Shown here: positions 1-18,346 of the stretch, in pieces | How positions within the stretch are numbered: position 1 is the stretch's first letter | How the letters are laid out: every line of letters starts with the position of its first letter | DNA from: Streptomyces sp. NA02950 | Lineage (GTDB): Bacteria > Actinomycetota > Actinomycetes > Streptomycetales > Streptomycetaceae | DNA length: 64,000 nucleotides | Reading direction: 5' to 3' | Assembly (NCBI RefSeq): GCF_013364155.1 | Contig: NZ_CP054916.1 | Span: 2,479,001-2,543,000, forward strand | Made by a program: the position numbers and the translations under genes | Notes under the pieces: generated by a model | Told to the model about the DNA's origin: nothing | The model's input: the letters and a program-made list of their open reading frames with translations, nothing else | The model's database searches: none

Positions 1-3000
1 CTGCCGATGTCGAGGCCGGTGATCCGGTGCTTATAGCCCTGGACGTAGTAGTGGTTGCCGGGCGCGAAGTCCTCCAGGGCCAGGCGTGCCGAGCGTTCGT
101 AACTGAACGGCTTGCTGCGGTATTCGGGGCGCTCGCCCCCGTTGTCCTCCCGCCACAGGAGGGTGGCCTCCAGCTCGGTGAGGGAGTCGACGAGGCTGTA
201 GTTGGGCAGCAGCCCGAGGTCGACGAGGGCGCCGTGCGCGGTGGTGCGGCTGATCTGGCCCGCGCGCCTGGCCACGGCCCGCCGTTCGGCGCGCAGTTCG
301 CGGCGCTGTCGGTCGTGTTCGGGGTCGCCGGCCACCAGCGCCTCGTGCGCCCGGTCGATGGCCTCGATGCGGCCCCGCATCTCGGCTCGCCGGCCCTCCC
401 ACTGCTCGCGGGCCCGGTCCAGGGCCCGGGCGAGCCCTCCGGTCGCGTACCCGCGCAGCTCGTCGGCCGCTTGCGGGCTCACGCCCGTCCCCTTCTCCTC
501 GTCGTACGGGGGGAAGAGCGCGAGGAACTCCTCGGCCAGCCGCGCGCCGTCGGCGAGCGCGGCCTGACGGAATTCGGCTGCCCAGCCCGACGGGCCGAAC
601 AGCTCGGTGGCCAGGCGCGGCAGTGGCATGACCGGGGTCCGGTCGCCGTCCGGGGTGGTCAGGCCTCCCGCACCGGCACGGTCGAGGAGAAAGGCGAGGT
701 ACTGGCGGCGCAGGATCTCGATGGCGGACAGGAAGCATCCGGGCGGCTGGATGTCCCCGGCGATCATCTGCCGCGGGTCGTCCAGGTAGTAGCGGTCCCG
801 GGGCCCCCGGTCGACCATGGTCAGCAGGTAGGCGTTGCCGGTGGCGCGGCCGGCCCTGCCCACCCGCTGGACGTAGTTGGCCGGTCCCTTGGGCAGCGAG
901 GCGAGGACCACCGCGGACAGGTCGCCGATGTCGATGCCCAGTTCCAGGGTCGGGGTGCAGGAGAGGACCTGTGGGTTGGCGTAGTGGGCGTCGGTTCCCG
1001 CACGGAACGCCTTCTCCACGGCCTCCCGCTTGGGGCGGCTGAGGGTGCCGGTGTGCTCGGCGGTGTTGATGGTGAACACCCCGGCCTCCCGGTACATCCG
1101 CCGGTAGAAGTCCTCGGTGAAGTCCCGTCGCCGCACACCGCTTTCCAGGTCGTGGCCGGTGCGCAGCGTGCCGCCGCAGCGGTAGCGCGGGCAGGGCAGT
1201 CCGTGCCACTGGTCGGCCAGGTCGGGGTGGATGGTCTGTTCCCAGGAGCAGACCGGGCAGTGGGCCGAGGCGTCGGCCACGGTGTCGTCCGCGAGCTTGC
1301 GCACCTGGACGTGGCCGGGCTGGAGCCCGAACACCCGGGTGGCGCCGTCCTTGGCGGTACGGGCCGAAAGGACCCCGGTGTCGACGAGGGCGGGCAGCAG
1401 CCGTACGAGGAAGGCGTTGGCGGCGTCCGGGCTCAGCCCGAGACTGCGCCGGGTCCAGTCCTGGTACCAGCCGAGCCGTCCGGTCAGGACGTCGAAGTCG
1501 TCGCTGCCCTGTTTGGGGCCGCCCAGCAGGAAGGCGGGGGCCGAGACCCCGGGCGGGAAGGCCGGCATACCGGTCGTACGTCCGCCCCAGATCGCCCAGC
1601 GCCGCACCCCTGCCTGGCCGATCCAGCCGTCGAGCCAGGCGTGCCGGATGGCGCCGCGGATGCGCAGCCGTTCCAGCAGGCCGCGGACATGGCCGACCCA
1701 CCGTTCCGGGCCGGGCACGGAGCCGTCCGGCAGGGCGATGTCGCCGGGGGTGGTGTGCAGGAGTTCGCGGACGATCCCCGCGATGCCGTCCGGGTCGGTG
1801 AGGGGGACGTCCGCCGCGACGGTACGCGTCAGCTCCAGGGTGCGGCCCTGCCGGGAGCGGAGGCCGAACTCCAGGACGGCCGCGAAGGCGAGGCGCTGGG
1901 CGATGAGTTCCCAGGTGGCCTTGGAGCCGCGGCTTCGTCCGGAGAGCAGCGTGTCGACGCCCGGCACGACGTGCAGGTCCGGCGGAATCACAGCGGCCTG
2001 CACGGCCTTGCTGTCGACGACGTCCGCGATGAGGTCCGCCGCGAGGTCGCTGAGCGCGATCGGTTGCTCCTCGTCGATGCGGCTGGCGAGCAGCGAGCGA
2101 AAGGAGAAAGTGTACGAGCGGCTGGCGACGTATCCGGCGCGGTGGGCGGCGTCCTGGACCGAGTCGTTGAACAGGAGGGTCTTGTCCTCCTTGAGGTTCT
2201 TGTCCAACTCTCCGCCGGTGAAGAGCTGGGTGATGGAGGCGGCGGCGAGTGCTGCGAGCCCGGTACCGAGGTAGCGGATGGCGTTGAAGGTACGGCAGGC
2301 CGGGCACTGGTCGCCCTGCCCCGCCCGGTCGTCGGCCAGGTCCGTCAGCACGAACGCGGCGTCGTGCAGCGGCCTGGGCACCCGTGGCCCGTCGCCGTCG
2401 CGCGGCGCCTCGAAGTCCGACTCGGGCGACAGCGGGCGCAGACGGCCGCTCAGCCCGTCGAGCACCATCACGGTCGGCCCGCTGCGTGGCCGTTCGGTGA
2501 CCAGGGCCGCCTCGTAGGCCTGCTGCGGGGTGGCCGCGATCATGTTGCGTACACGGCGCTTGTCGCGTCCCACGGAGGCGCGGCGGATCTTCGAGGCGTT
2601 CATGTCGAGGGTCGCCGGGTCCACCTCCGGGGAGAGCGCCGCCCAGCCCGAGCGGCCGCACTCGCGGCAGAAGACGGCGGGCAGGAACACCTGGGCGGGC
2701 GGCGCCGCGCTGTCATCAGCGGGCATGGCGAGAGCCGCGCCGTCCGCCGGACCGCCCCCGGGATCGTCGCCGGAAGTGCGGGCCAGTGTCCCGCCCGAGG
2801 CCACCCGCTCGTCGTCCCACCGGAACTCCGCCCGCGCCGCGCTGATCCCGCGCAGCACGCGGGAGACCGACCGCACCCAGTGGTGGATCTCGATGGACAG
2901 CAGCGGCCGCCCGGGGTGATCCGGGTCGCGGGCGGTCGACAGCAGGGCGACGTAGCGGGCGAGCGCTTGGGCGGCGACGGCCGGGTTCTGCTGGACGGCC

Positions 3001-4235: not shown

Positions 4236-4419
4236 GCGCCTCCTCCTCTTCTTCTGCTCCCGGTCTGCTCCCGGTGCTGCGGTGTGCCCGGTTTCGTCTG
4301 TGTGCGGATCGTGGCCGGCCACGCGGATACGGTAACCGGGACCCGGCGGTGCCCGGCACGCGCGGGCAGGACGCGACCTGCGGCGTTGCCGGTACGGCCC
4401 GGCAGGCTGGGCGGCGGGA

Positions 4420-5364
4420 TCAGACGCCGAGCTTGCGCCCCACGTAGGCGATCCGCAGGGTGCGTTCGGCGTGCAGCAGCCGAAAGTGCATCCGTCCCGG
4501 CTTCGGCAGGAACTCGCAGTGCCAGTCGAAGAGCTCCTCGGCGCCCCCGTCCTCGAACCAGCACAGCCGCCTGCGCGACTCGAATTCGGTCCGCACGTCC
4601 GACCGCCACTGCGGGGCGATGGGCTGCGTGTCCGGGTTCCACTCGGCCACCGCCGCCTCCAGCTCGATCAGGCGGTCACGGACCGGCCGGACCCAGACCT
4701 CGGGCAGGTCGCGCAGGTCACCCTCGACGCGTGGGAGGAACTGGAGACGGGGAAAGAACTCCGCCCGCCGCTCCCAGAGCTCGTCCCCCCGCCGTACGGC
4801 GCCCAGGCCGCCTCTGCGCGCCGCCTCGGCACCGTCCCGGATCCACGCGTGGTGCGTCTCGTAATGGTCCCGGGCCGACATGTGCCGGATCTGGACCTCG
4901 CTGGTCCGCCAACCGGACTCGCCTTCCTCGCCCTCGACGAGCTGCTCGCGCTCCAGGGTCAGCCGGTCGGCATGCCAGCGGGACTCGACCGGCAGCGAGA
5001 CCCCGAGCCCGTCCATCAAGTGGGCCGCGCCGAGCCCTTCCACCGGGTCGCCCTGATGCCGGTACTCGACGTCGTAGTGGCCCTCACCGTCCGGGAAGAC
5101 GGCACGGTGCGGCCACTTGTTCTGCATCTTCAGCATGAGCATCCAGGAATCCCGGTTCCTGGGATTGCCGTGCCACTTCCCGATGGGGTGGCCCGCGGCG
5201 AGCTGGAGCCCGGTGATCGGCTCCCGCGCCACCAGCACCGTGCCCTTCCGGTCGGCCCGCCAGGTCTTCAGCACCGCCTGTGCGAACTCCGTCATGGCCC
5301 GGTCGGCCCGCGCCGGTTCGCACGACGACTCACAGGATCTCTCGTTCAGGAATAACAGCGGCAC
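4420..5364 (-). CDS. Unknown 314-aa protein of a defence-island operon
   Basis: Hypothetical protein, 314 residues from a GTG preceded by GGAGGGGGAGA; a second possible start is the ATG at 5295. It opens with PLLFLNERSC and contains a W-H-G-N-P-R-N-R-D stretch near residue 67. Its last ~110 residues (from FFPRLQFLPRV to AYVGRKL) include GRMHFRLL. That C-terminal pattern is vaguely like the RelE/HigB toxin fold (small basic domain ending in an I-x-x-I/V-G-x-K/H-L strand), but no catalytic set can be assigned. No membrane segments or signal peptide are visible. It lies between the DUF3696-type ATPase gene (110 nt upstream) and the giant helicase (184 nt downstream), so it is probably co-transcribed with them. 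Function unknown. Confidence 0.75.
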   Translation of the reverse strand: MPLLFLNERSCESSCEPARADRAMTEFAQAVLKTWRADRKGTVLVAREPITGLQLAAGHPIGKWHGNPRNRDSWMLMLKMQNKWPHRAVFPDGEGHYDVEYRHQGDPVEGLGAAHLMDGLGVSLPVESRWHADRLTLEREQLVEGEEGESGWRTSEVQIRHMSARDHYETHHAWIRDGAEAARRGGLGAVRRGDELWERRAEFFPRLQFLPRVEGDLRDLPEVWVRPVRDRLIELEAAVAEWNPDTQPIAPQWRSDVRTEFESRRRLCWFEDGGAEELFDWHCEFLPKPGRMHFRLLHAERTLRIAYVGRKLGV

Positions 5365-5474
5365 GTCTCCCCCTCCGCGATGATGTACGAACCGTGGCCG
5401 GGCCGACTCGGATCGGGCCCGGCCGGTCCGTCCCCGGCTGGTCGGTCCCCGGCGGCTCGGCCGAGGGCCGGCAG

Positions 5475-6668
5475 TCAGTCGAGAAGCTTCTCCAGCGTGT
5501 TCTCCAGCTCGTCGAAGAACCCCTCGGGCCACTGGTCAAGCATCCCGTCCCGGTCGATGTGTGGACTGATGACGTCGACGCCCGTGCCATCGCCCCGGAA
5601 GTAGTGCAGGACCGCCTGATCCGGAGCCAGCAGCCCCTCCTTGACGGAGAGCCGCACCCCGTTGAGCACGTGGTCACTGTGGGTCTCCACGATGAGCTGC
5701 GCCCCCTGCGCGGCGGCCGCGGCGGCGAGTTTGGCCATCCGGGTCTGGCCCTGCGGGTGCAGATGCGCCTCGGGGTTCTCCAGCAGGACGAGCGACCCGG
5801 GCCGCGCGGTCAAGCAGGCCACGACGATCGGCAGGGCGTAGGTCAGCCCGAATCCGACGTTGGTCGGCCGCCGACGCTGCGTCGAGGTGAGCGCGCCCTC
5901 TCCGAACCCGTACGACAGCCGCACCGAGTCCGTGTTCGCGATGGCGTCGGCCCGGATGTCCACCCCCGGGCACAGCTCCCCCATCCAGGCGGCGGCCTGG
6001 GCGAGGAGCAGCGACGACTGGGCACGCGGATGGCGCAGCGGCCCGGCGGGAACCTCGTCCCGGGCGTGCTGCCGCAGGAAGTTGACAGTGTGCTCCCCGC
6101 GCACGCCGAGGAAGCGGCGTCCGATGGCCACTTGGTGGTCGCGGGGGTAGAACTCGGCCGGGGAGATGCGGTCGGCGTGCAGATACTGGAATCCGGCCGT
6201 GAAGTAGTTCGGGATCACGGCCGCGTCCCCGGCCGGGCGAGCGGCCACGCTCTCCGAAGTGAGCGGAAGTGCGACATCGCTCAGCGGCAGCAGATTCTGC
6301 TCGGCCTCGTAACGGACGTACCAGCAGTAACGGTGCGGGCCCTCGCTCACCGCGAGCATGATCTCCGGGTCATCGCCCGTGAAGTCCTCGTGGAGAACGT
6401 CCCGGCCGGTGCCCAGCCTGACCAGTTCGCCGTTGAGGAGCAAGCCGCTGTCGTGGGCGGGCGCGCGGCCCCCCTGCGCGATGACCTCAGCCATCTGGCC
6501 TGCCCAGTCAAGGTCGCCGGCGGCGTACGACTGATGGAGCAGGGCGAGCGCCTGCAACACGCTGCTCTTGCCTGAGGAGTTCAGACCGGTCAGCAGGGTG
6601 AGCGGGCCTAAGGGCAGATCCACCTGTTGGAACGCCTTGAAGTTCGTCAGCGCCAGTCGGTCAATCAC
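5475..6668 (-). CDS. AAA/SMC-like ATPase of the DUF3696 type
   Basis: A 397-residue ABC/SMC-type ATPase. The N-terminus IDRLALTNFKAF is the usual start of RecF/OLD-like ATPases. Walker A GLNSSGKSS is at residues 28-36, a Walker B-like ENPEAHLHP motif near 297, and ETHSDH near 325. ENPEAHLHP followed by the ETHSDH switch is characteristic of DUF3696 proteins. The protein lacks the TOPRIM nuclease region expected in an OLD nuclease, so it probably needs a partner effector. The GTG start overlaps the last 8 nt of the upstream DUF262 gene, so the two are translationally coupled. DUF262 and DUF3696 genes are often neighbours. A role in DNA sensing or restriction is inferred, not shown. Confidence 0.88.
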   Translation of the reverse strand: MIDRLALTNFKAFQQVDLPLGPLTLLTGLNSSGKSSVLQALALLHQSYAAGDLDWAGQMAEVIAQGGRAPAHDSGLLLNGELVRLGTGRDVLHEDFTGDDPEIMLAVSEGPHRYCWYVRYEAEQNLLPLSDVALPLTSESVAARPAGDAAVIPNYFTAGFQYLHADRISPAEFYPRDHQVAIGRRFLGVRGEHTVNFLRQHARDEVPAGPLRHPRAQSSLLLAQAAAWMGELCPGVDIRADAIANTDSVRLSYGFGEGALTSTQRRRPTNVGFGLTYALPIVVACLTARPGSLVLLENPEAHLHPQGQTRMAKLAAAAAAQGAQLIVETHSDHVLNGVRLSVKEGLLAPDQAVLHYFRGDGTGVDVISPHIDRDGMLDQWPEGFFDELENTLEKLLD

Positions 6669-7977
6669 CGCTCAGTACCCCCCGGAAGAGCTCGCCCATC
6701 ATCATGAACCGGGTCCGCACCTTCTTCGGATCACCGGTGGCCACGGAGATGGAACGGTCGAAGTCCCAGTCCTTCATCAGCCCGAAGAACCCTTCGAGCA
6801 CCTTGTCACGGAACGCTACCAGCGCCTCACGCTCGTGATCACCCAGCAGGGACAGATTGACCGCGACGGTCTCGAACAGGGCCTTGTTGATGGGTGATTT
6901 CGCCTTCCCGCCCTTCCACTTCCGGAAGGCATGGTCCCCGAAGAGGTCGGTGGCGCACCGCATCGCCTTGCGGAACTCCAGCGCCAGCCAGTCCCGATCG
7001 GCGACGTCGAGCCGGTTGATGCGGTGCATGGAGCCGACGAGGAACTGATCGAAGTCCCGCTGCATGTGCAAGGAGGGATCGGTGATGCGGAAGGCGGCGA
7101 ACCGCAGGACCATCTCCCGGTCCGCCATCCGCTCATTCGACACGCTGTCCCCGGTCGCGGTGAGGAACGCCGGGTCCTCGGCCAGGTCGGCGAGGAACCC
7201 CCTGGCCGGTCCGTTGATCATGGCGTGCCGGATCTCCTGCGGCTTCAGCGGCATGCCGCCGGTGTTGATCCGCGAGAACACGTTGAACTTGACGGTCTCC
7301 GGCGTCCCCTGCTGGATGATGTGCACCACGAGCTGCGTCTCGCGCAGCCTGATCCGCAGCCGCCCGGTGAGGTCCTGATAGCCGCTGCCGTGGAACTGCC
7401 GCAGATAGTCCAGCCCGCGCAGGCTCAGCGGCCGCATGCCCACGGCCTCCGGCGCCATGAACCGGGCGATCGCGGTCAGCCGCTGGATCCCGTCCACGAC
7501 GGCCCAGTTGTCCTGCTCGTCCTGCGCCATGTGGAACGACGAGATCGGGATACGCAGCAGCAGCGACTCGATGAGGCGGCTCTGCTGGACGTCGCTCCAG
7601 ATCCCGGCCCTGCGCTGGAAGTCCGGGGCGAGGTCGATCATCCCTTCCCTCAGCCGCGACAGCAGCAGATCGACGGTGGTCGCCTGGGTCTCGATCTTGA
7701 TGCTCTCGGGCCGGAACGGCGCGGAAATGGCTCCGGGGTCGTCCGCGCCCCCGTCGTCCAACCCCTCTTCGCCGTCCAACCCCTCCTCGTCGGCGGGCTC
7801 CTCCAGCTCCACCCCGGTCGGCCGACCGTCGTCCCCCACCTCGACGGGGGCGTAACGGGGTGAGAAAAGGCTGGTCAGCAGATCGTCCGGCTCGTCCTGT
7901 GGCAGATACCGCCGATAGCCACGGTCCCGCTCACGTCCGGCGGCCCGCCCGCTGCCGCTGTCCTCCAGCCCCGCCAT
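6661..7977 (-). CDS. DUF262 (ParB/Srx-fold) domain protein
   Basis: A DUF262 protein of 438 residues from the ATG at 7977, which has GGGGAGA just upstream; an in-frame GTG at 7990-7992 would add five residues. The DUF262 core runs from about residue 95 (IKIETQATTVDLLL, then APDFQRRAGIW) to the DGIQR motif near 160, which corresponds to the DGQQR nucleotide-binding motif of ParB/Srx-fold proteins. The remainder is alpha-helical-looking and ends without a recognisable DUF1524/HNH nuclease domain, unlike many restriction-associated DUF262 proteins such as GmrSD. Acidic low-complexity sequence (about residues 50-80) precedes the core. It overlaps the DUF3696-type ATPase gene by 8 nt, so a joint complex is likely. 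Its biochemical activity cannot be read from the sequence. Confidence 0.88.
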   Translation of the reverse strand: MAGLEDSGSGRAAGRERDRGYRRYLPQDEPDDLLTSLFSPRYAPVEVGDDGRPTGVELEEPADEEGLDGEEGLDDGGADDPGAISAPFRPESIKIETQATTVDLLLSRLREGMIDLAPDFQRRAGIWSDVQQSRLIESLLLRIPISSFHMAQDEQDNWAVVDGIQRLTAIARFMAPEAVGMRPLSLRGLDYLRQFHGSGYQDLTGRLRIRLRETQLVVHIIQQGTPETVKFNVFSRINTGGMPLKPQEIRHAMINGPARGFLADLAEDPAFLTATGDSVSNERMADREMVLRFAAFRITDPSLHMQRDFDQFLVGSMHRINRLDVADRDWLALEFRKAMRCATDLFGDHAFRKWKGGKAKSPINKALFETVAVNLSLLGDHEREALVAFRDKVLEGFFGLMKDWDFDRSISVATGDPKKVRTRFMMMGELFRGVLSGD

Positions 7978-8056
7978 GTATCTCCCCGTCACCGTCGCTC
8001 GTCGCCGCCGTACGTGACCTTTCCTCCCGTCACCCTATAGACGGAGACCGACACCG

Positions 8057-8461
8057 TCAGTGCGGCAGGTCGAGTTCGGCGCGGACGGTTTCTCCGACGG
8101 GTGCGCGGTCCAGGACGGCCCAGCGGTCGGCGAGGGTGTCGACCAGGAGCAGCCCCCGTCGGGTCTCGGAGAGGGTCGGCGGGGCGGTGACCTCGCCGGG
8201 GCCCGGGGGCCGCTTCTCGCCACGGGTGTCCGACACCTCGATGCGGAGTACGTCTTCGCCGAGAGTGAGGCGCAGTTCGGAGTCCCGGCCCGGGACGCGG
8301 CCATGTGTGGCCGCGTTGGCGCACAACTCGGCGACGATCAAGGCGGCGCTGTCCGAGATCCGCGTGCCGTGCGGGATGCCCCAGCCATGGAGCTGGTGCA
8401 GCGTGAGCCGCCGGGCGAGGCGCGCGCCGAGCGGGGTTGAGCTGAACCGCTGCGTGAACAC
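8057..8461 (-). CDS. Anti-sigma/HATPase-type ATP-binding protein
   Basis: A 134-residue single-domain GHKL ATPase of the streptomycete anti-sigma-factor-like family. The N-box is ELCANAATHG (about residues 45-54), the G1-type motif DTRGEK follows near 78, and GLLLVDTLADRWAV near 103. Members are usually encoded beside XRE-DUF397 gene pairs, as here: the XRE gene diverges from it across 207 nt. Its stop is 79 nt before the DUF262 start on the same strand, so it may be the first gene of the defence-like operon. The GTG start has only a weak ribosome site. Its partner and any role in regulation are inferred from family context. Confidence 0.85.
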   Translation of the reverse strand: MFTQRFSSTPLGARLARRLTLHQLHGWGIPHGTRISDSAALIVAELCANAATHGRVPGRDSELRLTLGEDVLRIEVSDTRGEKRPPGPGEVTAPPTLSETRRGLLLVDTLADRWAVLDRAPVGETVRAELDLPH

Positions 8462-8550
8462 ACGTACGGTGACGGACCCTTGGCGCGTGGGGGGGGTGGT
8501 GTCATGCGGCCACTGTGGCCTGCGGATTCACCCGTGCACCAGGATGATAT

Positions 8551-8575
8551 TGCGTACGCTGAGTCAACGTACGCA
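8551..8575. promoter_or_regulatory. Operator-like inverted repeat between HATPase and XRE genes
   Basis: A perfect inverted repeat with 8-bp arms TGCGTACG and CGTACGCA and a 9-nt spacer. It sits almost midway between the two divergent starts (90 nt and 94 nt away), where an autoregulatory XRE operator is expected. Binding by the adjacent XRE protein is inferred. Confidence 0.5.
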
Positions 8576-8668
8576 CACAGATGGTGGACGGTACTCGTGA
8601 ACGACCGTAAGCATGGGTGCGATCAGGAGGGGCACGGCGGGGCGGGGTTGCACAGGAGGTGGCCAGCG

Positions 8669-9556
8669 ATGGCCGAGGAAAGTGGCAGTGCGGATGGTGG
8701 GGCGGAATCGGGTGAGGTGCCCGCGTCGCTGTGCGGCGGGGAACCGGAATCCTCCGACAGTTTGCGGACGTTCGGGGCCGTCGTCCAGGCCCTGCGGGAA
8801 CATGCCGGTCTGAGCAGGGCGGAGTTCGCAGACCTGGTGCGGTTCTCCAAGCACACGGTCGCGTCGGTGGAACAGGGGCGGCGCATGCCGGACCCCTCGC
8901 TCGTGGAACGGGCGGAGGAGGCGTTGGGGAACACCGGCGCCTTGCGGCAGGCTGCCCGGCACCTGTGCCGACAGCCGGGACTGGCGGCCTGGTTCCGGCA
9001 GTGGGCGCGGTTGGAGAGGGTGGCGATCAGCCTGTGCACGTACGAATGCCGGGTGGTGCCGGGCCTGTTGCAGACGGAGGCGTACGCGCAGGCGGTGTCG
9101 CTGAACGTCCCGCCCGTGCCAGACGAGACGGAGCTGGCCGAGCGCATCGCCGCCCGGCTCGCACGACAAGATCTGCTGTCCACCAGCCGCAAGCCGCCGA
9201 CGGCGTTCAGCTTCATCATCGAACAGGCGGTGCTGGAACGGTACACGGGCGGCGAGGACGTTACGCGGGAGCTGCTGGACCATCTGCTGGGCGTGGACGA
9301 GCGGCACTGGAACGTGGAGTTGCAGATCATGCCGTTGCGGAAGCCGGTGCATGCTGGGTTGGACGGTCCTATGCAGTTGCTGGAGACACCCAAGCATCGA
9401 TGGTTCGGGTACTCGGAGGGGCAGAAGAACGGTCGCCTCATCTCCGACTCGAAAGAGATCAGCGTCCTGCACCAGCGGTATGCCAAACTGCGCTCGCAAG
9501 CCCTCACCCCGGAGGACTCCAGGAGCCTGCTGGAGCGGATGCGAGGAGACCTATGA
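8669..9556 (+). CDS. XRE-family regulator with DUF5753 domain
   Basis: A 295-residue cytoplasmic transcription regulator. A helix-turn-helix of the XRE type lies at about residues 33-90 (FGAVVQALREHAGLSRAEFADLV, then KHTVASVEQGRRMP). A DUF5753 ligand/effector-like domain follows (from about residue 105; SLCTYECRVVPGLLQT). The ATG at 8669 is chosen because AGGAGGTG lies 9 nt upstream; the open frame extends 63 codons further upstream without a supporting ribosome site. It overlaps the DUF397 gene by ATGA. The pair is the Streptomyces BldB/AbaA-like regulatory arrangement. It may repress its own promoter and that of the opposing operon through the palindrome at 8551-8575. Confidence 0.9.
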   Translation: MAEESGSADGGAESGEVPASLCGGEPESSDSLRTFGAVVQALREHAGLSRAEFADLVRFSKHTVASVEQGRRMPDPSLVERAEEALGNTGALRQAARHLCRQPGLAAWFRQWARLERVAISLCTYECRVVPGLLQTEAYAQAVSLNVPPVPDETELAERIAARLARQDLLSTSRKPPTAFSFIIEQAVLERYTGGEDVTRELLDHLLGVDERHWNVELQIMPLRKPVHAGLDGPMQLLETPKHRWFGYSEGQKNGRLISDSKEISVLHQRYAKLRSQALTPEDSRSLLERMRGDL

Positions 9557-9738
9557 GCACGCCCGAACTCGTCTGGCGCAAGTCCAGCTACAGCAGCGGC
9601 AGTGAAGGTGACTGCGTCGAGGTGGCCACCTGCCCCGGCACCGTCCATGTGCGCGACTCCAAGGACAAGGCGGGCGCACAGCTCGCCTTCTCTCCCACGG
9701 AGTGGGCCAGCTTCGTCGCGTACGTCGCCGAGTACTGA
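9553..9738 (+). CDS. DUF397 small protein
   Basis: A 61-residue DUF397 protein. It begins STPELVWRKSSYSSG, has the conserved CVEVA segment and the VRDSKD motif, and ends with FSPTEWASFVAYV; all are diagnostic of the family. The start overlaps the XRE stop (ATGA) and has GAGGAG upstream, so translation is coupled. DUF397 proteins are thought to act with their XRE partner; the mechanism is not visible here. Confidence 0.93.
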   Translation: MSTPELVWRKSSYSSGSEGDCVEVATCPGTVHVRDSKDKAGAQLAFSPTEWASFVAYVAEY

Positions 9739-9746
9739 GCTTCGCA

Positions 9747-9784
9747 GCCCGCCCCGTACCGGATCGCTCCGGTGCAGGGCGGGC
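9747..9784. terminator. Bidirectional hairpin terminator
   Basis: Stem GCCCGCCC/GGGCGGGC with an inner stem ACCGGA/TCCGGT around TCGC. It lies in the 48-nt space between the convergent DUF397 and methyltransferase genes, and ends three bases before the methyltransferase stop. Confidence 0.75.
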
Positions 9785-9786
9785 GT

Positions 9787-12700
9787 TCACTGCGCGTTCT
9801 TGAGCCGGGCCTCGAAGTGGGCGTGCGCGGCGCGCATTTCCTCTTCGCGGTTCGCCTTATAGAAAGGCTCGGCATAGCCCTCCGGCGGCTCCGACCGTTC
9901 GCCCTTCTCAAAAGCGACGAACTGCTCGTAGTGTTCCTTGGTCTGGCCATACCCATGGGCATACGGGTCCTTGGCCAACTGGCGGCCCTCCGCATCAAAC
10001 CACATCTGCGATTCGCGGTCAGCGAGGATCGCATACCGGGCCTTGTGAATGGCCACGAGTTCATCGGCGCTCATACCCAGCCACACGGCAACCAGGGCGT
10101 CGATCTCCACGAGAGTTGCACGCCGCTCGTACTCGGTCCGGAGCGGAGTGCTGTAATCCCAGGTCTTCTTGAGGTGCCCAGCAAGGGGCGCCAGTTCGGG
10201 CCATTCCACGACCCAGTCCTCGTATCCGGGCCACGTCATGTCGTACAGCTCGGTCCAGAGCGGCGCGTACGCCTCGGTGAGGCAATTGAGACGGAGGGTG
10301 CGGATGAGGAGAGGAGCGGCAAGGGGATGGCCGGGGTCGGCGTAGGGCATCCTCTCTGCTTCGGCCCGTTGGAAATTCGCCTTCCCTGCGATGCGCAACA
10401 TGTAGTCGAGCGGCAACGACGCCCAAAACCCCGAGTTGAGTACAGTTGCTCGATCGTCTGCCATCGCCAATGATTGAACGCCATGGATGTGTGCTGGCCC
10501 CGGGGTAATCAGCGCAGCGAACAAGCTACGCTCAGTGTTGAAGGGAATCATCACCCGCCACGCCAACCGGTAAAACTGCGTGTAAGGCTGAAAGCACCAC
10601 AGCCGTCGCCGCAGCAACTCTCGCTGCTCATCCTCGGAGAGTTCCAACTCCTCCTCGGTCAAGACCTCAGCACGGCCTGTCCACTCCTCGGCACTGGGCT
10701 CCCAGTCAACATCAAGCCGCGAGTGGTCCAGCCAGCGGTCCTGCTCTTCCTCGTACCGCTCCAGCGAGCAGGACTTCGGGCGCACATAGTTGGTCCGAGG
10801 CACTGCATCGCTGGGTAGACTCGTGAGATCGACAGTCGTCCAGTCGTGATTACCTCGACACGGGATTTTCGGCTGTTTACTCATTGGCGTTGCGATACCA
10901 AAGTGGGGGCCTTGGAGGACAACTTCGGCCAGCAACGCAGGCTGCCTTGTGTTCCAGCCGATATAGCCGTTCTCCCTTCCCATCTTCTCGTGATAGCCAC
11001 TACTGATCCGAGGTTTACGCTGTTTCAGTCGCGCCTGAACGGCCGACAGAGCAGCAATTGCTCCCTGCTCCTCACTTGTAGCAAGTTGAAGAAGCGCCGT
11101 CTGCTGTTTCGGCGCATCGGTCTCTCCTGTCAACCGTTGCCACTCCGCAAGTACATCGTCGTCAACCGTGACGACCCGCGCACGATGGGGGCGCAGATCC
11201 CAGTGTCCATCCCGCTTCATGCCGGGCACCTCGCCCTTGCCATCATGGTCGAGAGATGCCACCAGAGGTTCCACTCCGTACAACCGGCTCAGGTTGTCAA
11301 AGCAAATGGAGCGCTGGCGACTGCCGTAGATGTGGACACCAAATTCAGTATTTCTACTGGCTTCGAAGGCCCAGTTTCCTACGTTCACAAAACCCGCATG
11401 AAGCCGAAGTCTGAGGTACACCGCTTCCCGGATTCGGCCATCCTTCGTACCACCCAAATGCGTGTCCGGATGCACAAGCCCGGCCATTCCCTGCACACCA
11501 AGGTTCCCCCACACCCGGCACATGAACGCCCGGTACAAGTCCGGCTGTGTACCCGTCAGCACCGGATATGTCAGGGGCGACGCGAGCCAATCCGCCATCG
11601 CCGTGTTCGACGCAAGCTCTTCCAAGAAGTATGAGGTTGCCCCCGCCTTCCCCAGCACCTCTTCCTTCCGCTTACGCCACGCCTCCACACTCGGCTTCTC
11701 AGCGAGCTTGAACCACGGTTCCTTCTCGGCGAGGACGACATCCTCTTTCCAACGCGGCTGCACCCACGGCGGATTCCCCACCTGGAGGTCGAATCCCCCA
11801 CCCCTCCCCCGGAAGACATGCGCGAAGTGCAGCTCCCAGTGGAAGAAGCCGTGGCCGTCCTCCGGCCTTATGTCCCGCTCCGTCGTACCCGCCAGGTCCT
11901 CGACCGTGTTGAGCCACGGGAACCGGGTCGGGAGATTGAACGCCCGGTCCATGCCCAGCGTGCCGTCGAGGTCCCGCTCGTACGCCTCCAGCACCGGAAG
12001 CGCCTCGTCCACCGGGAGGTCGTCCAAGCCGTCCAGGAACGAGCCGTCCGGGGTGTCCTGGGTGCCGAGGGTCGCCTCCAGGAAGTCCAGCCAGTCGCCG
12101 AACGTCTTGAGCGGGATGATCGGCCGCCACTTGTCCTCGGCGATCTCGTGCTTGCGGCCACCGCCACCGCCCGCCAACGCCGCCTTGGTCCGCAGGCCCG
12201 CTCCGCTGTCAGCGGCGCCAACGGTCAGCTCGCCCTGCTCGCCGTCCGGGTCGTCGAAGAGACCGGCCGCCTGCCAGGCGACCTCACCTGGTGCGGGGCC
12301 GCTCGGCTCGGGCGCCGGGGCGGGAGCCGTAACCACAGCGGCAGACGGAACAACCGACGACGCACCCGAAGCGCGCCCCGCGGCGAGGTCCGCCTCGCGG
12401 ATCACCCCGCGGCCCTCCTCGTACAGCCAGCCCGAGCCGTCCAGCTCGGCCACCTTGTCCAGCGGCCAGAACCACAGCGCGCACCAGGTGTCCATGACGG
12501 TCTTGAGCCGCCAGTACGGCGTGCCGACCACGGTCAGGTCGTCCAGGATCTTCTGCTTGTCCGCCGCCTCCTCCGACGGCGTCAGCCAGTCCGCGCCCCA
12601 GACGTCGATGCGCCGGGACACCTTCCGCTCCGACAGCTCCAGACGCTTGGCGACCAGAGACCACAGGAACTCCACCCGCCGCGCGACACGTTGCAGCCGC

Positions 12701-15375
12701 CACTGCTCGGTCTTCGCCGCCGCCTTCGCCCACCGCTCGTAGCGCTTCTGCCGCTTCTCTGGCGACTCATCGCCACGCTCCTCGAACGGCTTCGGGCCCT
12801 TCGGCGCCTTCTGGATGCCCCTGCGCCATTGCCCCAGCGCCTTGGCCTGCTCCTCCGCGAGCTTCTTCGCCTCGCTCTCCCCCGCGACCGCGCCCCACCC
12901 CACCGCCGGGAGCAGGAAGTGGTGGACCGCGCCCTCCGGCAGGTCGCCGTCCCGGAACGGAAGCTCGGTCGGCGGAAGGGCGTCCTCCTTCTTCTTCGCC
13001 AGCCACTTGCCGTGCGGCAACGCATCCGCCGCGTAGACCTTCCGCCCCGCGCCGATCAGCGAGTTGCCGCGCCGCAGGTGCAGGCCGAACCAGGGGGCGC
13101 GCATGCCCGGGTGCATGGAGTTGAGCCACAGCGACACCTCGGCCAGCTCCACAGCGGTGGCGTTCAGGTCCACTCCGTACGCGTTGTGCAGCGCGACGTA
13201 CGCCTTGACCTTCTGCAACTCGATCTGGCGCTGTTCGGTGTCGACCCGGCGCCCCAGCTCCCGCTCGCGCCGCCGCAGGTACTCGGACGCCACCTGGTCG
13301 ATCGCCTCGTTGAGGAACGCTCCCGAGCCCAGCGCGGGCTCGCAGATCTTCCACTCCAGCAGCTCGCGGGCCGTCGTCGTCTCGCCGTCCTGGTCCAGGC
13401 GGTGCTTGAGGGCCAGCTCGACGGTGACCTCGGTCAGGGACTTCGGCGTGTAGTACGAGGCGGACGTCTGACGGTCGCGGCCCGCCAGGCGGTAGACGAA
13501 CGAGCCCTTCGGGTGGACCACCCGCACCGGTCGGCCGGTCTCCTCGTCGGGCCGTACGACGAACACCTCGTCCGGGTAGTCGTGCACGCGCGAGGCCGGG
13601 ATCATCCAGCTGCCACCCGACGCGTCGCCGCCCTTGGCGACCTCGTACAGGTCCTCCTCGGCGATGAAGCCGGTGTACGACATCAGGCCCTCGTACACCG
13701 CGCCGAGCTGGTTGATGCCGAGCTGGGCGTATGAGATGAAGCCGCCGCGCTCGCGCCCCTTGCCCTTGGTGAGCATCAGGCGGCGCAGCACCTTGTGCAG
13801 CGTCTCGTTGCGCAGCCGGGTGTCCAGGAACTCACGGCGCGCCGGTCGTTCGCCCGACGACGACTCCCCGGAGTCCTCCGTGTCCTCGTACGCCGGGTTC
13901 TCGATCTGGTCGGCCGAGATGAGGCGGACCGCGTCCTTCTTGAACAGGTCGGAACGCAACGGCTCGAAGCGCAGGCCCACATCGGCGCTCCGGCGGGCGG
14001 CTCGGCGCGAGCGGTCGGCCTCGCGCATGCGGTCGGTGTATTCGTCGCGGGTGATGGCGCCGGAGGCGAGCAGGTCGGCGGCCTCGTGCTCGGCCTGGGT
14101 GGCCGCGCGGTCGGCGGCCTCGGCGGCCAGGTCCTCCGGTTCGCTGCCGTACTCCCGGTGGCCCTCCTCGACCTTGCGGAAGAGCAGGTCGAGCGATTCG
14201 TACAGGTGGAAGCCGCGCCGGGACCGCTCGCCGACCAGGTCGCGTACGACGAGGTCACCGAGGCGCTGGAGGCCGTAGCCGCGCGCGTATTCGGGATAGT
14301 CGGCGGGCAGGATGCCGAGCGCGGGCTGCGCCTCGGCGTACAGCAGGAACAGGACGCGGTAGAGGTAGCGCAGCGCCTCGCGGCTGAGTTGCTTGGCGAG
14401 GCGGGCCGGGTCGTCGAGTCGCTGCGGGGTGACGCCGTTCTCGGGCTCGCGCAGCCGCTCCAGCACCTCGTTGGCGATCCACTCGACCGAAAGCCGCAGC
14501 CCCTCCCGCAGCTCCGTGGAGACGCCGACGGCGTGCTTGCCGGACTTGTCGACGAACGCGGCGAGCGGAGCGGCGCCACCCTCCGCCGGGAGGCGGAGCG
14601 AGTCCGCGCCGAAGAGCGCGGCCAGCGTGTCGAGTTCGCCGCCGTTGCGGTCGTCGCGGCGGCTGAGGGCGGCGTCGAGGTCGGCGGCGAGGTAGCGGCC
14701 CTCGTGCCAGGCGAGCCGGTCCGCGAGGACGATGACGCCGCCGACCAGCAGCAGGACGTACCTGGGCGGCTCGTCGCATGCGAAAAGGAAGTCGGTGACG
14801 GCCTTGGCGTCGGTGAGGCTCCCGGACGCCTCCAGGGTGACCGGATGCAGCAGTCGGCCCGCGCCGTCGGGGTCGAGGGCCGCGTCGGGCTGGGCGGTCC
14901 AGCCACAGGAGACGGCGAGCAGGCCGCGTTCGGCGTGCGCGACCTGGACGGCGTACTCTCGGTCGGCCCGGTGGACCGTCACGGTCTGCTCGTGGGCGGT
15001 GTCGTAGCCCAGCGCCCGGAGGGTGGCCAGGTGGAGATCGGTGAGCCGCTTGCCCCAGTCGGCGGGGACCGGCGCGTCGGGTACGGCGAGCGCTTCCGCG
15101 TCCTGCACGAAGTCGGCGCGGGAGGCGAAGTAAGGGCCGTGCAGGGCGCGCAGGCCCTCGCGCGGGGTACGGGGGCGCGGCGGCACGGAATCGGGGTCGG
15201 CGCCGGTGCGCCTGGCCTCGGCGACGGCGGTGGCGTGGGCGCGCCGCGCCTCCTCCTCGGCCTCGGCCCAGCGGGCGAGGAGTCCGTCCTTGGCCTTGAG
15301 GTCCTTGGGCAGGACTTCGGCGAGGTAGTGCGCCGAGAGGTAGTCGCCGTGGTTGACCAGCGAGTCGTACGTCAC
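9787..15375 (-). CDS. Giant N6-adenine methyltransferase-like protein (Eco57I/DrmMI type)
   Basis: A 1862-residue DNA methyltransferase-like protein. The SAM-binding motif CEPALGSGAFL is near residue 677, preceded by SASYYTPKSLTEV, and the catalytic NPPW motif is near residue 1200. The ~520 residues between motifs I and IV are much longer than in compact Eco57I or type I M subunits. The first ~600 residues resemble the N-terminus of large Eco57I/PglX-type proteins. The last ~600 residues (10.0-11.75 kb) should hold target recognition and are visibly lower in GC. The GTG start lies one base after the SNF2-helicase stop, so the two are coupled. This pairing matches DrmD-DrmMI of class 1 DISARM; a stand-alone type IIL or PglX-like enzyme is the alternative. 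No nuclease motif is recognised. Confidence 0.88.
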   Translation of the reverse strand: MTYDSLVNHGDYLSAHYLAEVLPKDLKAKDGLLARWAEAEEEARRAHATAVAEARRTGADPDSVPPRPRTPREGLRALHGPYFASRADFVQDAEALAVPDAPVPADWGKRLTDLHLATLRALGYDTAHEQTVTVHRADREYAVQVAHAERGLLAVSCGWTAQPDAALDPDGAGRLLHPVTLEASGSLTDAKAVTDFLFACDEPPRYVLLLVGGVIVLADRLAWHEGRYLAADLDAALSRRDDRNGGELDTLAALFGADSLRLPAEGGAAPLAAFVDKSGKHAVGVSTELREGLRLSVEWIANEVLERLREPENGVTPQRLDDPARLAKQLSREALRYLYRVLFLLYAEAQPALGILPADYPEYARGYGLQRLGDLVVRDLVGERSRRGFHLYESLDLLFRKVEEGHREYGSEPEDLAAEAADRAATQAEHEAADLLASGAITRDEYTDRMREADRSRRAARRSADVGLRFEPLRSDLFKKDAVRLISADQIENPAYEDTEDSGESSSGERPARREFLDTRLRNETLHKVLRRLMLTKGKGRERGGFISYAQLGINQLGAVYEGLMSYTGFIAEEDLYEVAKGGDASGGSWMIPASRVHDYPDEVFVVRPDEETGRPVRVVHPKGSFVYRLAGRDRQTSASYYTPKSLTEVTVELALKHRLDQDGETTTARELLEWKICEPALGSGAFLNEAIDQVASEYLRRRERELGRRVDTEQRQIELQKVKAYVALHNAYGVDLNATAVELAEVSLWLNSMHPGMRAPWFGLHLRRGNSLIGAGRKVYAADALPHGKWLAKKKEDALPPTELPFRDGDLPEGAVHHFLLPAVGWGAVAGESEAKKLAEEQAKALGQWRRGIQKAPKGPKPFEERGDESPEKRQKRYERWAKAAAKTEQWRLQRVARRVEFLWSLVAKRLELSERKVSRRIDVWGADWLTPSEEAADKQKILDDLTVVGTPYWRLKTVMDTWCALWFWPLDKVAELDGSGWLYEEGRGVIREADLAAGRASGASSVVPSAAVVTAPAPAPEPSGPAPGEVAWQAAGLFDDPDGEQGELTVGAADSGAGLRTKAALAGGGGGRKHEIAEDKWRPIIPLKTFGDWLDFLEATLGTQDTPDGSFLDGLDDLPVDEALPVLEAYERDLDGTLGMDRAFNLPTRFPWLNTVEDLAGTTERDIRPEDGHGFFHWELHFAHVFRGRGGGFDLQVGNPPWVQPRWKEDVVLAEKEPWFKLAEKPSVEAWRKRKEEVLGKAGATSYFLEELASNTAMADWLASPLTYPVLTGTQPDLYRAFMCRVWGNLGVQGMAGLVHPDTHLGGTKDGRIREAVYLRLRLHAGFVNVGNWAFEASRNTEFGVHIYGSRQRSICFDNLSRLYGVEPLVASLDHDGKGEVPGMKRDGHWDLRPHRARVVTVDDDVLAEWQRLTGETDAPKQQTALLQLATSEEQGAIAALSAVQARLKQRKPRISSGYHEKMGRENGYIGWNTRQPALLAEVVLQGPHFGIATPMSKQPKIPCRGNHDWTTVDLTSLPSDAVPRTNYVRPKSCSLERYEEEQDRWLDHSRLDVDWEPSAEEWTGRAEVLTEEELELSEDEQRELLRRRLWCFQPYTQFYRLAWRVMIPFNTERSLFAALITPGPAHIHGVQSLAMADDRATVLNSGFWASLPLDYMLRIAGKANFQRAEAERMPYADPGHPLAAPLLIRTLRLNCLTEAYAPLWTELYDMTWPGYEDWVVEWPELAPLAGHLKKTWDYSTPLRTEYERRATLVEIDALVAVWLGMSADELVAIHKARYAILADRESQMWFDAEGRQLAKDPYAHGYGQTKEHYEQFVAFEKGERSEPPEGYAEPFYKANREEEMRAAHAHFEARLKNAQ

Positions 15376-15376
15376 G

Positions 15377-18346
15377 TCAGTTCTCCGCCGGGTCGAACGG
15401 GTCGAAGGCGCTGCCGGAGGTCTCGTCCGGAGCGGGTCGGTCCAGGACGGCCAGCACCCGCAGCAGGGGGCGGCCGGTGGTGGTGAGCTGGTCCAGGAGG
15501 TGCGCCTGTTCGTCGGCGGTCTCCTCGATCTGCCGCTGGCGCCGGGCGCCGGCGCCCGGCAGCGAGTCCTGGCGCCAGTCCTTGAGGCGGTCGCGGTACG
15601 TGGTGAGCGGTCCGCTGATCTGTTCCGCCCACTGGTCCTTGTACGTCTCCAGGTGCTCGCGTGCCGTGGCCACCGCCGCCGGGACCAGCGACTGGAGGTG
15701 GCCGAGGTCGCGCGGGCCGCCGGTGCGGGCCAGGTCCGGGCCGACCTTCGCCGCGCGCAGCGCGTCCGTCAGGGACGCGACGGGGGCGCCGGGCTCGGTG
15801 CTGACGGCCATCCACCGCACGACGGTGGGGCGGCCGAGGGCGTTGGAGTAGATGCCCTGGATGAGGAAGGTGGGGTGGGTGACATGGGGCGAGGTGATGA
15901 CCGGGGCTTCCTGCCGCCCGAACTGGACGAGGACCTTGTCGGTGAGCCACTCCACCACGGGGTGGATGTCGGTGAGGAACGAGACGCCGGGCCACAGGGT
16001 GTCCGAACTCGTCCGGGCCTGGTCGAGCTTGTCCTGCGCGAGGTCGCGGTCGAAGGTCATGATCATGCGCTCGGCCACGCCCTGTTCCTTGAGGTACGAG
16101 GGCGGCAGGGCCTTGAGCCGGCGCAGCAGGTCGGGGGCCTTGGCCGGGGAGAGGGAGAGGTAGGGGCGCTTCTGGGCGTCCTCACCCCGCGACAGGCCGA
16201 TGGCATCCTCGGCTCGCTCCTCGTACACCTCGGCCAGCGCGGTGTCCACGAAGGCCGCCGTGTCCCCGTCGAAGAGCGAGGGGATTTCGGCGCGCGGCGG
16301 GAGTTCCTCGTCGGTGATGGTGTCCACCTGGCCGAAGAGGTCGGCGAGGTCGTCGTCCGCCGTGGCGGGCGCGGGGTTGAGGAAGTCCTCGACGCTGCCG
16401 CCCTCGACCAGTTCACGGATGAGCCGCCGCTCCTCCTCGTCGGCCCGGTAGTAGCCGGTCTCCGCCTCCGCCGTGCCGTTCAGCTTGTGGGCCTCCTCCT
16501 CGCGAGCGAGGAGCTTCTCGGCGACGGTGCGGTCGTCCTTGGCGCCCGGGTGGGCGGAGGTGAGGATCAGCGCCCGGAACTGCGGCTCGTATTCCTGTCC
16601 GTAGCGGTCGATACGGCCGTTGCGCTGCTCGATGCGGATGAGGGACCAGGGGATGTCGTAGTGGATGAGGTGATGGCACTGGCGGTGCAGGTTGACGCCC
16701 TCGGAGGCGACATCGCCGGTGAACAGCAGGCGCACCGGATTGTCGGCGAGGCCGAAGGCCTCCACGACTTTGCGCTGTTCCTCGTCGCTGAGGCCGCCGT
16801 GCATGACGCGCACGGCCTTGTGGTTCCCGTCCTTGTCCACCGGGAAGCCCAGACGGGCAGGGACCACTTTCGCCAGCCACGTGAGGGTGCGGACCCGCTC
16901 GGAGAAGATGACGACACGGGTGTCGCTGTGCGGGCCCGCATTGATCTCATCCGATGTCAACTGCTCGATGAGCTTGTCCAGTTTCGCGGAGTCGCCGGGT
17001 GCGGTGCCGTCGCCCATGGAGTCGGTGATCTCGCGCAGCCGCGCGAGCGCGGCCTGTTCCGTGTCGATCGCGGGGTCCGGGCTCCTGCCCTCGTCCTCGG
17101 CCTTGCGCGCCTTCTTCGCCAGCTCGGTACTGCGGCGGTTGACCGTCTCGGCGAGCGCCACATGGGACGACAGGAACGTCTTCAGGAGGGTGTAGGGGAA
17201 CAGCCGGTCGGTGCTGACCGAGGTCCGGTCCTGATCCGCCGTGCCGAACTCGGCGCTGCTCGCGGGCGCGGGCAGCCAGTACTCGGTCAGCTCCGCGAAG
17301 ACACGCTCCTCGTCGTCGTTGGCAGGGCAGTGCAGGGACAGCGTGGGCCCCCGGTCCGCCCACTCGGTCCCGATACCGTTGCGGACCTCGGGGCTGATCT
17401 TCGTCCGGCGTATGAAGAGGTGCCCGAGGTCTTCGGCCGGGTCGTAGTGATCGCGGTCGGCGATGGCGGCGGGGTCGAGGAGTGAGATGAGGTCGGCGAA
17501 AGACCGCTTGTCCCCGTTGTGCGGGGTGGCGCTGGCGAGCAGCAGGGCGTCGGTGCGCGGGGCGAGGGTTTCGGCGAGGGCGCGGCGCTGGCTGCCCTGG
17601 TTGATCAGGTTGTGGGACTCGTCGATGACGACGGCGTCCCACTGGATGCGTTCCAGGTGGTGCCGGTACTGGCCGATGTTCTTGAGCGTGTCGACGGAGA
17701 TGATGACCCGCTTGTAGTGGGTGAAGGGGTTGCGCCCGGCGGGGATCTCGCGCTGGATGCGCTGGATCCCGAGGGAGTCCAGCCGCACCAGCGGAATGGA
17801 GAAGCGGGTCCACAGCTCGTGCTGGAACTGTTCGAGGATGCTCTGCGGGGTGACGACGAGGATGCGCTCGCCCCGCCCGCGGCGGATCAGCTCGGCGAGG
17901 GTGAGGCCGATCTCCAACGTCTTGCCGAGGCCGACGACGTCGGCGATCAGGATGCGGGGGCGGAGGTTGCGCATGGACAGCGCGAGTTCCGCGGGACGTT
18001 GCTGATAGGCGAGCGGATTGAGGAGGAAGCGGTCGGCGAGGGCGAGACCGCGCTCGGACTGCGGGAGGGGCGTCTTGCGCAGGACCGCCTCCAGGAAGAG
18101 CCGGCCGCGGCGGAAGTACGAGGAGGTGTCGGGGACCAGGCGCGTCTTCTCCGGCTCCAGCAGCTCGACCGTGTCGATGCCGGTGAAGAAGACGGCCTCC
18201 TCGTCCCGGACGAACTCCGAGACGCCTATCGCTTCGATCCTGTCGCCGTCGTGGTCGGTCCGGGTCGCGGTCCGCACCAGCCATTCCTCGTCCCGTACGA
18301 GGATCTGTGCGCCTGGCGGGTACCGAGTCTCCCCCTGCTCTGCCAC
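15377..18346 (-). CDS. SNF2/DEAD-type helicase, DrmD-like
   Basis: An SF2 helicase of 989 residues from the GTG at 18346, with GGAGGGACG upstream; ATG at 18361 is an alternative. Walker A is in ADVVGLGKTLE (about residue 140), the box II sequence is DESH (about 240), SATPHNGD follows, and motif VI is EQRNGRIDRYGQ (about 570). VGLGKT plus DESH plus QRxGRIDRxGQ is the SNF2/RapA pattern. It is followed after one base by the giant methyltransferase. In class 1 DISARM the SNF2-like DrmD is encoded beside the methylase DrmMI, so this is a good candidate for a DrmD homologue. Role inferred from architecture and context. Confidence 0.88.
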   Translation of the reverse strand: MAEQGETRYPPGAQILVRDEEWLVRTATRTDHDGDRIEAIGVSEFVRDEEAVFFTGIDTVELLEPEKTRLVPDTSSYFRRGRLFLEAVLRKTPLPQSERGLALADRFLLNPLAYQQRPAELALSMRNLRPRILIADVVGLGKTLEIGLTLAELIRRGRGERILVVTPQSILEQFQHELWTRFSIPLVRLDSLGIQRIQREIPAGRNPFTHYKRVIISVDTLKNIGQYRHHLERIQWDAVVIDESHNLINQGSQRRALAETLAPRTDALLLASATPHNGDKRSFADLISLLDPAAIADRDHYDPAEDLGHLFIRRTKISPEVRNGIGTEWADRGPTLSLHCPANDDEERVFAELTEYWLPAPASSAEFGTADQDRTSVSTDRLFPYTLLKTFLSSHVALAETVNRRSTELAKKARKAEDEGRSPDPAIDTEQAALARLREITDSMGDGTAPGDSAKLDKLIEQLTSDEINAGPHSDTRVVIFSERVRTLTWLAKVVPARLGFPVDKDGNHKAVRVMHGGLSDEEQRKVVEAFGLADNPVRLLFTGDVASEGVNLHRQCHHLIHYDIPWSLIRIEQRNGRIDRYGQEYEPQFRALILTSAHPGAKDDRTVAEKLLAREEEAHKLNGTAEAETGYYRADEEERRLIRELVEGGSVEDFLNPAPATADDDLADLFGQVDTITDEELPPRAEIPSLFDGDTAAFVDTALAEVYEERAEDAIGLSRGEDAQKRPYLSLSPAKAPDLLRRLKALPPSYLKEQGVAERMIMTFDRDLAQDKLDQARTSSDTLWPGVSFLTDIHPVVEWLTDKVLVQFGRQEAPVITSPHVTHPTFLIQGIYSNALGRPTVVRWMAVSTEPGAPVASLTDALRAAKVGPDLARTGGPRDLGHLQSLVPAAVATAREHLETYKDQWAEQISGPLTTYRDRLKDWRQDSLPGAGARRQRQIEETADEQAHLLDQLTTTGRPLLRVLAVLDRPAPDETSGSAFDPFDPAEN

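Follow-up and report, generated by a model that had tools for sequence, protein, structure and literature searches.

The locus described here lies at the left end of a 64,000-nucleotide window of the Streptomyces sp. NA02950 chromosome (contig NZ_CP054916.1, positions 2,479,001 to 2,543,000; in our numbering G000:C1:2479001-2543000), and the sequence was extended past the left edge of this window to complete the genes armC and armD. Transcribed from the minus strand, the genes run in the order Ser/Thr kinase, armA, armB, HATPase, nsnA, nsnB, nsnC, armC and armD. We read them as a complete chromosomal ARMADA Type II (ARMADA II) defence system of a kinase-bearing actinobacterial lineage, in which a guest cassette and a complete Menshen system occupy the armB-armC junction, and we put the probability of this reading at roughly 0.87. 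The features are as follows, in window coordinates unless marked otherwise.

18503..19681, minus strand: Ser/Thr protein kinase, conserved at the head of the unit in kinase-bearing ARMADA II (Pfam Pkinase 1e-38; position upstream of armA; own clade)
15377..18409, minus strand: ArmA, BrxHII/RapA/DrmD-like SNF2 helicase, 1010 amino acids (PADLOC DrmD 1.4e-82; Walker A K163, Walker B D263)
9787..15375, minus strand: ArmB, PglX/type IIG-like adenine methyltransferase, 1862 amino acids (PADLOC REase_MTase_IIG 2.3e-263; Pfam Eco57I; S-adenosylmethionine motif G683, NPPW N1201)
9553..9738, plus strand: small DUF397-type protein of the regulatory cassette (from its translation; the homologue in locus L005 is annotated DUF397, and matches lie at the same place in relatives)
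about 8480..9556, plus strand: XRE-HTH/DUF5753-type regulator of the cassette, start uncertain (from its translation; the names fit the annotation of homologues)
8057..8461, minus strand: HATPase_c_2 (RsbW/anti-sigma-like ATPase) of the cassette (Pfam 1.1e-10)
6661..7992, minus strand: NsnA (DUF262/GmrSD_N) of Menshen (PADLOC NsnA 4.8e-126; Pfam GmrSD_N 1.8e-19)
5475..6668, minus strand: NsnB (AAA/DUF3696 ATPase) of Menshen (PADLOC NsnB 5.6e-115; 8-nucleotide overlap with nsnA)
4420..5532, minus strand: NsnC of Menshen (PADLOC NsnC 6.5e-102; true start uncertain, the profile match beginning at residue 59)
1..4322, minus strand: ArmC, YprA/DruE-like helicase, 2290 amino acids, of which residues 1-1440 lie in the window (whole gene G000:C1:2476450-2483322; PADLOC DruE3 8.7e-89)
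G000:C1:2474156-2476453, minus strand, outside the window: ArmD, UvrD-type helicase, 765 amino acids, with a weak ParE/RelE-like N-terminus (4-nucleotide overlap with armC)

The XRE-HTH/DUF5753 and DUF397 domain names of the window copies are presumed from their sequences. A single nucleotide separates armA from armB, while armB and armC lie 5.5 kilobases (kb) apart with Menshen and the regulatory cassette in between, and armC extends 2.55 kb beyond the left edge of the window. An initial annotation had listed a SNF2 helicase, a giant adenine methyltransferase, a HATPase, a DUF262 protein, a DUF3696-type ATPase, an unknown protein and a COG1205 helicase of at least 1411 residues. All of these genes and the 1- and 8-nucleotide spacings given with them were confirmed, and leftward extension carries the last helicase to 2290 amino acids. 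However, two plus-strand genes (XRE-HTH/DUF5753-type and DUF397-type) sit between the methyltransferase and the HATPase and break the minus-strand run, and the kinase at 18503-19681 and the UvrD-type ArmD are also counted here as part of the unit, so that the list was right in most genes, yet incomplete.

Judged from their sequences, the SNF2 helicase, giant methyltransferase, COG1205 helicase and UvrD helicase are armA-armB-armC-armD of ARMADA II, which Bell et al. 2025 (preprint PMC12458937) describe as a DISARM/Druantia 'missing link'. Profile matches in PADLOC agree with the mixed character of the set: ArmA matches DrmD (1.4e-82), a model named DrmA (5.2e-59) and HmaA (6.1e-51) and is also BrxHII-like, ArmB is called type IIG/DrmMI-like, ArmC DruE-like and the UvrD protein GajB-like, which upholds the earlier view that the first pair resembles DrmD-DrmMI. 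No curated cut-off was reached among the NCBIfam matches listed for the eight scanned proteins. According to the preprint the gene order is strict, and a kinase, Menshen or Streptomyces is nowhere mentioned in its main text; the required order is present in the window, though the guest parts armB from armC. A tblastn search of plasmids with ArmC led to the Streptomyces plasmids NZ_CP108327 and NZ_CP109251, in which kinase, armA, armB, armC and armD are contiguous, with 4-nucleotide overlaps between successive genes from the SNF2 gene through the giant helicase gene; plasmids of Microvirga, Pseudanabaena and E. coli carry armA-armB-armC-armD in the same order without the kinase. Because such contiguous clusters exist, with and without the kinase, the SNF2 helicase-methyltransferase pair and the giant helicase, which had been taken for two functional modules, are better seen as the halves of one system parted by a guest, and the idea that the DISARM-like and Druantia-like parts belong together holds, as the ARMADA II order in relatives indicates.

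The E. coli ARMADA II is reported to act directly and without abortive infection, giving protection from 13 of 80 phages; when two residues were changed in each Arm protein, six of the changes led to loss and two to partial loss of protection (PMC12458937). All eight of these residues are conserved in the window proteins, as aligned through an E. coli plasmid homologue that carries each mutated residue at the numbering of the preprint: ArmA K163/D263 (E. coli K136/D236), ArmB G683/N1201 (G605/N971), ArmC K137/D269 (K110/D234) and ArmD K298/D513 (K266/D454). For ArmC, the alignment to the E. coli counterpart spans 76% of the protein, with an identity of about 30%. The mobilizable IncY plasmid pYLPD7b of E. 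coli (locus L011) carries an ARMADA II with the residue numbering of the preprint, and at least 16 further E. coli/Klebsiella plasmid records match the window ArmC across the same range as pYLPD7b.

A PD-(D/E)xK-type nuclease domain is predicted near the ArmC C-terminus (residues about 1800-1995) from its modelled fold and conserved residues, as expected of ARMADA II, for which the preprint also gives a predicted nuclease domain at this place. More tentatively, the domain may be active and of the Vsr subtype expected in ARMADA II. Since the domain falls outside the window, the earlier statement that no recognisable nuclease was in view was an effect of the window edge. A 516-residue ArmC model gave no Foldseek match at E 0.001, and the C-terminal domain was therefore folded alone. 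The sequence matches of ArmC in the PDB (9tu7 'DEAD/DEAH box helicase', 9wae 'Helicase' and YprA 6znp) cover the helicase core, and ArmB has no PDB sequence match. DruE of Druantia III, a relative of ArmC, is described in a preprint (PMC13192584) as a helicase-nuclease that loads on DNA containing 3' single-stranded DNA, which makes it plausible that ArmC cuts DNA.

The kinase gene in front of armA was followed through relatives collected by ArmB alignment (the best 80 of 566 confirmed matches, with up to 10 kb on each side), a set that for this reason leans towards the window. A less biased class-level sample came from 394 genomes spread evenly over the class, 41 of them with ArmB; 40 places were fetched, while G000 itself and G490 and G514 (short contigs) were not. 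Among the 80 relatives, four loci were not assessable (L025 and L055 at contig ends; L060 and L088 without armA), and a same-strand kinase gene lies upstream of armA in all 76 others, usually within about 220 nucleotides; at L078 the kinase frame, read stop-to-stop, overlaps armA and leaves no measurable gap. A branch with 100% support sets the 79 kinases from these loci, the window and the two plasmids apart from 25 further kinases, all taken from one genome, that of the window; the HRD motif is retained in 78 of the 79 and the DFG motif in 74. Kinase distances track ArmA distances (r 0.91 over 73 loci; 0 of 2000 permutations as high). At class level the kinase is present in 22 loci, absent from 16 and not assessable in two (L146 and L180). 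On a 125-row ArmB tree (100 rows with the kinase, 20 without, 5 not assessable), kinase presence requires a single change, a value that none of 500 shuffles reached; the trees do not include L008 or rows whose ArmB frame is short, L078 among them.

It is unlikely that the kinase is merely one of the common Streptomyces kinases, placed upstream by chance and without a role in defence. This genome holds 29 further kinase matches, and ARMADA II does occur without a kinase in E. coli, in other bacteria and in 16 of the 38 assessable class-level loci; yet constancy of position and strand in 76 of 76 loci, a clade apart from the 25 genome kinases, a single change on the ArmB tree and largely intact catalytic motifs speak against chance. 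On the evidence of its position and descent, we therefore assign the Ser/Thr kinase to the ARMADA unit. We found no report of a kinase upstream of ARMADA among the open-licence PubMed Central papers listed or, by term search, in the main text of PMC12458937.

The armB-armC junction is a recurrent cargo site in kinase-bearing relatives. The distance between the two genes was measurable in 68 of the 80 loci (11 of them worked out by hand): 23 loci are contiguous, and the other 45 are split, with a gap of 1.0-22.6 kb and a median of 6.4 kb. All three nsn genes are present in 21 of the split loci and at least one in 23, which leaves 22 where no Menshen gene was found and 24 that lack at least one nsn gene; an XRE-type gene occurs in 38, a HATPase in 31, a HEC-01B-type gene in 15 and a caspase-helicase in nine. 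Guests were named from representatives, 20 guest proteins being compared with PADLOC and eight with Pfam. Those other than Menshen include EACC1, a caspase-AAA helicase with a Beta protein (PD-Lambda-2_C-like) and HEC-01A/B, and further guests are DrmA-DrmB in L083, which also has Menshen, and an Orf5/HEC-06-like protein, seen in L040 and assigned to L052 by clustering. The split and contiguous states need eight changes on the 125-row tree, so guests have repeatedly entered or left the junction. Where both characters could be scored, 56 kinase-bearing rows are split and 39 contiguous, whereas the kinase-less rows comprise 0 split and 18 contiguous; the kinase could not be scored in four further split rows, and certain loci count as split from the presence of Menshen or the cassette after armB, with armC itself out of view. 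The 22 kinase loci of the class sample comprise four measured as split, three inferred as split and 15 contiguous. No report of this cargo site was found among the open-licence PubMed Central papers listed or, by term search, in the main text of PMC12458937.

Mobile-element boundaries were considered for the insert and rejected, as no direct or inverted repeat pair was seen at both ends. A conserved chromosomal site was likewise rejected: besides the window, only L012 of the 125 tree rows shows a gene of the right flank, in a comparison where about 5.6 kb upstream of the kinase was visible in most of the 80 relatives and about 2 kb in the class loci. Since only L012 shares such a gene, the unit probably changed location while its internal gene order persisted.

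Several guests are worth recording in their own right. One module recurs at L029:17003-22355 and in eight further loci, with an EACC1-type small protein, a 1290-amino-acid caspase-AAA helicase and a Beta protein (PD-Lambda-2_C-like); a HEC-01B-type gene accompanies the caspase-AAA helicase module in eight of nine loci. Streptomyces sp. BK208 (L083; L110:1860-7893) carries both Menshen and DrmA-DrmB at armB-armC, a DISARM core inside ARMADA. The guest genes of L103:8308-12975 and of the matching stretch of L037 have no PADLOC match and are candidate defence genes by embedding; among them is a 689-amino-acid Hsp70-like protein with a Zc3h12a-type RNase domain. At L060, armB, an XRE gene and Menshen are found with no armA or kinase in view, and the same genome has a second locus, L049, with kinase, armA, armB and armC in view.

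In the window, nsnA, nsnB and nsnC are contiguous and in order, each with a strong PADLOC match; the NsnABC of PADLOC we take to be the Menshen of Millman et al. 2022, and the papers listed in a literature search for Menshen dealt with other subjects. The end of nsnC lies 97 nucleotides from the start of armC on the same strand, so transcription probably reads through Menshen into armC-armD, and the nsn genes found in the loci of relatives are likewise on the strand of armB and armC. Across 199 genomes of the genus, NsnC occurs in 15 and ArmB in 29, with both in 10 against 2.2 expected (15 x 29 / 199). Each of these 10 genomes has the two on a single contig and strand, with 5.9-11.2 kb from the searched ArmB segment to NsnC. 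Five genomes have NsnC without ArmB and 19 the reverse; the refuting conditions set by the initial annotation thus have a mixed outcome, the profiles assigning the set to no complete DISARM or Druantia, and Menshen and ARMADA being apart in 5 + 19 genomes and together in 10. On an 86-row ArmB tree, three junction labels need 10 changes against 38.8 for shuffles, and the window falls in a clade of 19 rows, each with at least one nsn gene, beside a sister clade that is mostly contiguous; within the window clade, L013 and L018 have partial nsn sets only, L013 keeping just a piece of nsnA. Given split loci with and without nsn genes and the counts from the 199 genomes, Menshen is a guest that recurs without being obligatory. 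It is mostly inherited together with its host and is probably an independent second defence carried as cargo.

The initial annotation had suggested instead a possible single, undescribed composite; on that view the ARMADA parts, the HATPase and the Menshen-like proteins would all be obligatory and act together. Every minus-strand gene does point the same way, each of the 19 rows of the window clade carries one or more nsn genes at the junction, and nsnA, nsnB and nsnC distances track ArmA (r 0.75-0.84 over 15-18 loci; 0 of 2000 permutations as high). Such co-inheritance is, however, also expected of cargo that travels inside the unit, and obligatory partnership fits poorly with 23 of 68 loci that are contiguous without a guest, with the many split loci that lack some or all of Menshen, with NsnC lacking ArmB in five of 15 genomes, and with L013, where an nsnA piece is all that stands beside the ARMADA genes. 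We give this proposal a very slim chance: its parts are those of ARMADA II (PMC12458937) and of a separate, known Menshen. That the SNF2 helicase-methyltransferase pair, Menshen and the Druantia-like helicase pair are unrelated neighbours in a chance defence island is scarcely credible, for although defence genes generally cluster in islands and the surrounding site is not conserved, with a flank gene shared only with L012 among the tree rows, the order armA-armB-(guest)-armC-armD is kept beside varied flanks, on plasmids and from Streptomyces to E. coli, and in E. coli protection is abolished once a motif is altered in any of the four proteins, according to PMC12458937.

Some observations weigh against an ARMADA II host with a Menshen guest, or against parts of that reading. 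The window Arm proteins are only 31-36% identical to their E. coli counterparts, and no ARMADA model is among the PADLOC or NCBIfam matches listed, so that the name of the system rests on gene order, alignment and the preprint. For the predicted nuclease, the one hit of the lone domain below E 0.001 in Foldseek by itself is an R2 retrotransposon protein; the VIA-align rows below the fourth mix nucleases with unrelated proteins; and a profile search of PDB sequences with the ArmC C-terminal domain returned no nuclease and nothing meaningful. The RelE-like N-terminus expected of ArmD in ARMADA II is seen here as a weak Pfam ParE_like match (E 0.01, under the cut-off of 24.4 bits). What the Mantel values and tree counts establish is common descent and not function. 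Finally, L141, a close neighbour of the window on the 125-row tree, carries the cassette, yet the 7.9 kb visible after armB hold no nsn gene.

The likeness to ARMADA II (PMC12458937) extends over the four proteins, their order, the eight mutated residues, the ArmC nuclease domain and a UvrD/GajB-like ArmD; the window adds the kinase in front and, between armB and armC, Menshen with the cassette. Menshen itself is present with all three genes in order and differs in being nested within another defence system. With DISARM class 1 the locus shares a SNF2 helicase akin to DrmD and a PglX-like methylase akin to DrmMI, whereas it shows no separate DrmA-DrmB pair and no DrmC, neither DrmB nor DrmC being among the PADLOC matches listed for the scanned window proteins. 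Models named DrmA do match ArmA, at 5.2e-59, where DrmD scores better, and ArmC, at 2.4e-14, where DruE is far stronger. This agrees with the initial finding that these three are not seen as separate genes. The helicase and the MZB region lie in one protein in the window, and ArmA scores 288.9 bits against the curated NCBIfam cut-off of 610 for DrmD. Membership of DISARM class 1 was rejected on the missing DrmA, DrmB and DrmC genes and this DrmD score. DrmA-DrmB does stand upstream of armA in some kinase-less actinobacterial ARMADA II loci, a DISARM-ARMADA neighbourhood found at L007 (1504-6413), L164 and L168, where the hidden Markov model check covers the L007 pair only; L174 and L177 show a weak DrmA match alone upstream of armA.

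ArmC is DruE-like, as in Druantia III, for which the preprint gives a PLD-type nuclease (PMC12458937) as against the predicted PD-(D/E)xK type of the window ArmC. Membership of Druantia III was rejected, DruH not being among the PADLOC matches listed for the eight scanned proteins; the profile checks thus assign the set to neither a complete DISARM nor a complete Druantia. BREX type 2/Pgl of Streptomyces shares the logic of methylase, helicase and Ser/Thr kinase, whereas the window encodes its kinase separately, as a protein of about 390 amino acids, and neither PglZ nor BrxC is among the matches listed. Hma, presumably a helicase-methylase system, contains embedded defence candidates (HEC; PMC12988326) and offers a precedent for such nesting; it differs from the window in that the host here is ARMADA II and the guest a complete three-gene system. 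ARMADA II, Menshen and embedded defence genes (PMC12988326) were thus already known, while the kinase and the cargo site appear unreported.

The locus retains intact motifs in the four ARMADA proteins, an intact Menshen set, kinase catalytic motifs and a same-strand order, from which a working scheme can be drawn. ArmB, by its motifs, would methylate adenines and so mark self DNA, and ArmA and ArmC would act as ATP-driven translocases that engage unmarked or replicating phage DNA. The predicted C-terminal PD-(D/E)xK-type domain of ArmC may then cut the phage DNA, and the UvrD-type helicase ArmD, which possibly carries a ParE/RelE-like domain, would join in its processing. By analogy with what has been proposed for PglW in type 2 BREX/Pgl, the kinase most likely gates ARMADA or signals to it. 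Menshen would form an independent second layer, with transcription probably continuing through the guest into armC-armD, and kinase, host system and guest would, as far as sequence can indicate, be functionally coupled. More tentatively, it is conceivable that kinase-bearing ARMADA II is a distinct subtype switched by its dedicated kinase, and that the junction is a docking site for swappable guests under a common ATPase/XRE/DUF397 cassette co-transcribed with armC-armD, so that host and guest would be regulated as one layered defence; we hold this to be possible, though doubtful.

An apparent DISARM/Druantia hybrid is thereby resolved into a named system plus a guest. The co-inherited kinase is a candidate on/off switch for ARMADA, recalling Pgl in Streptomyces. 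Since the site within the operon holds varied known defence modules, the unassigned guests without a PADLOC match (for example clusters 15, 18 and 24) are, by their embedding, candidate defence genes.
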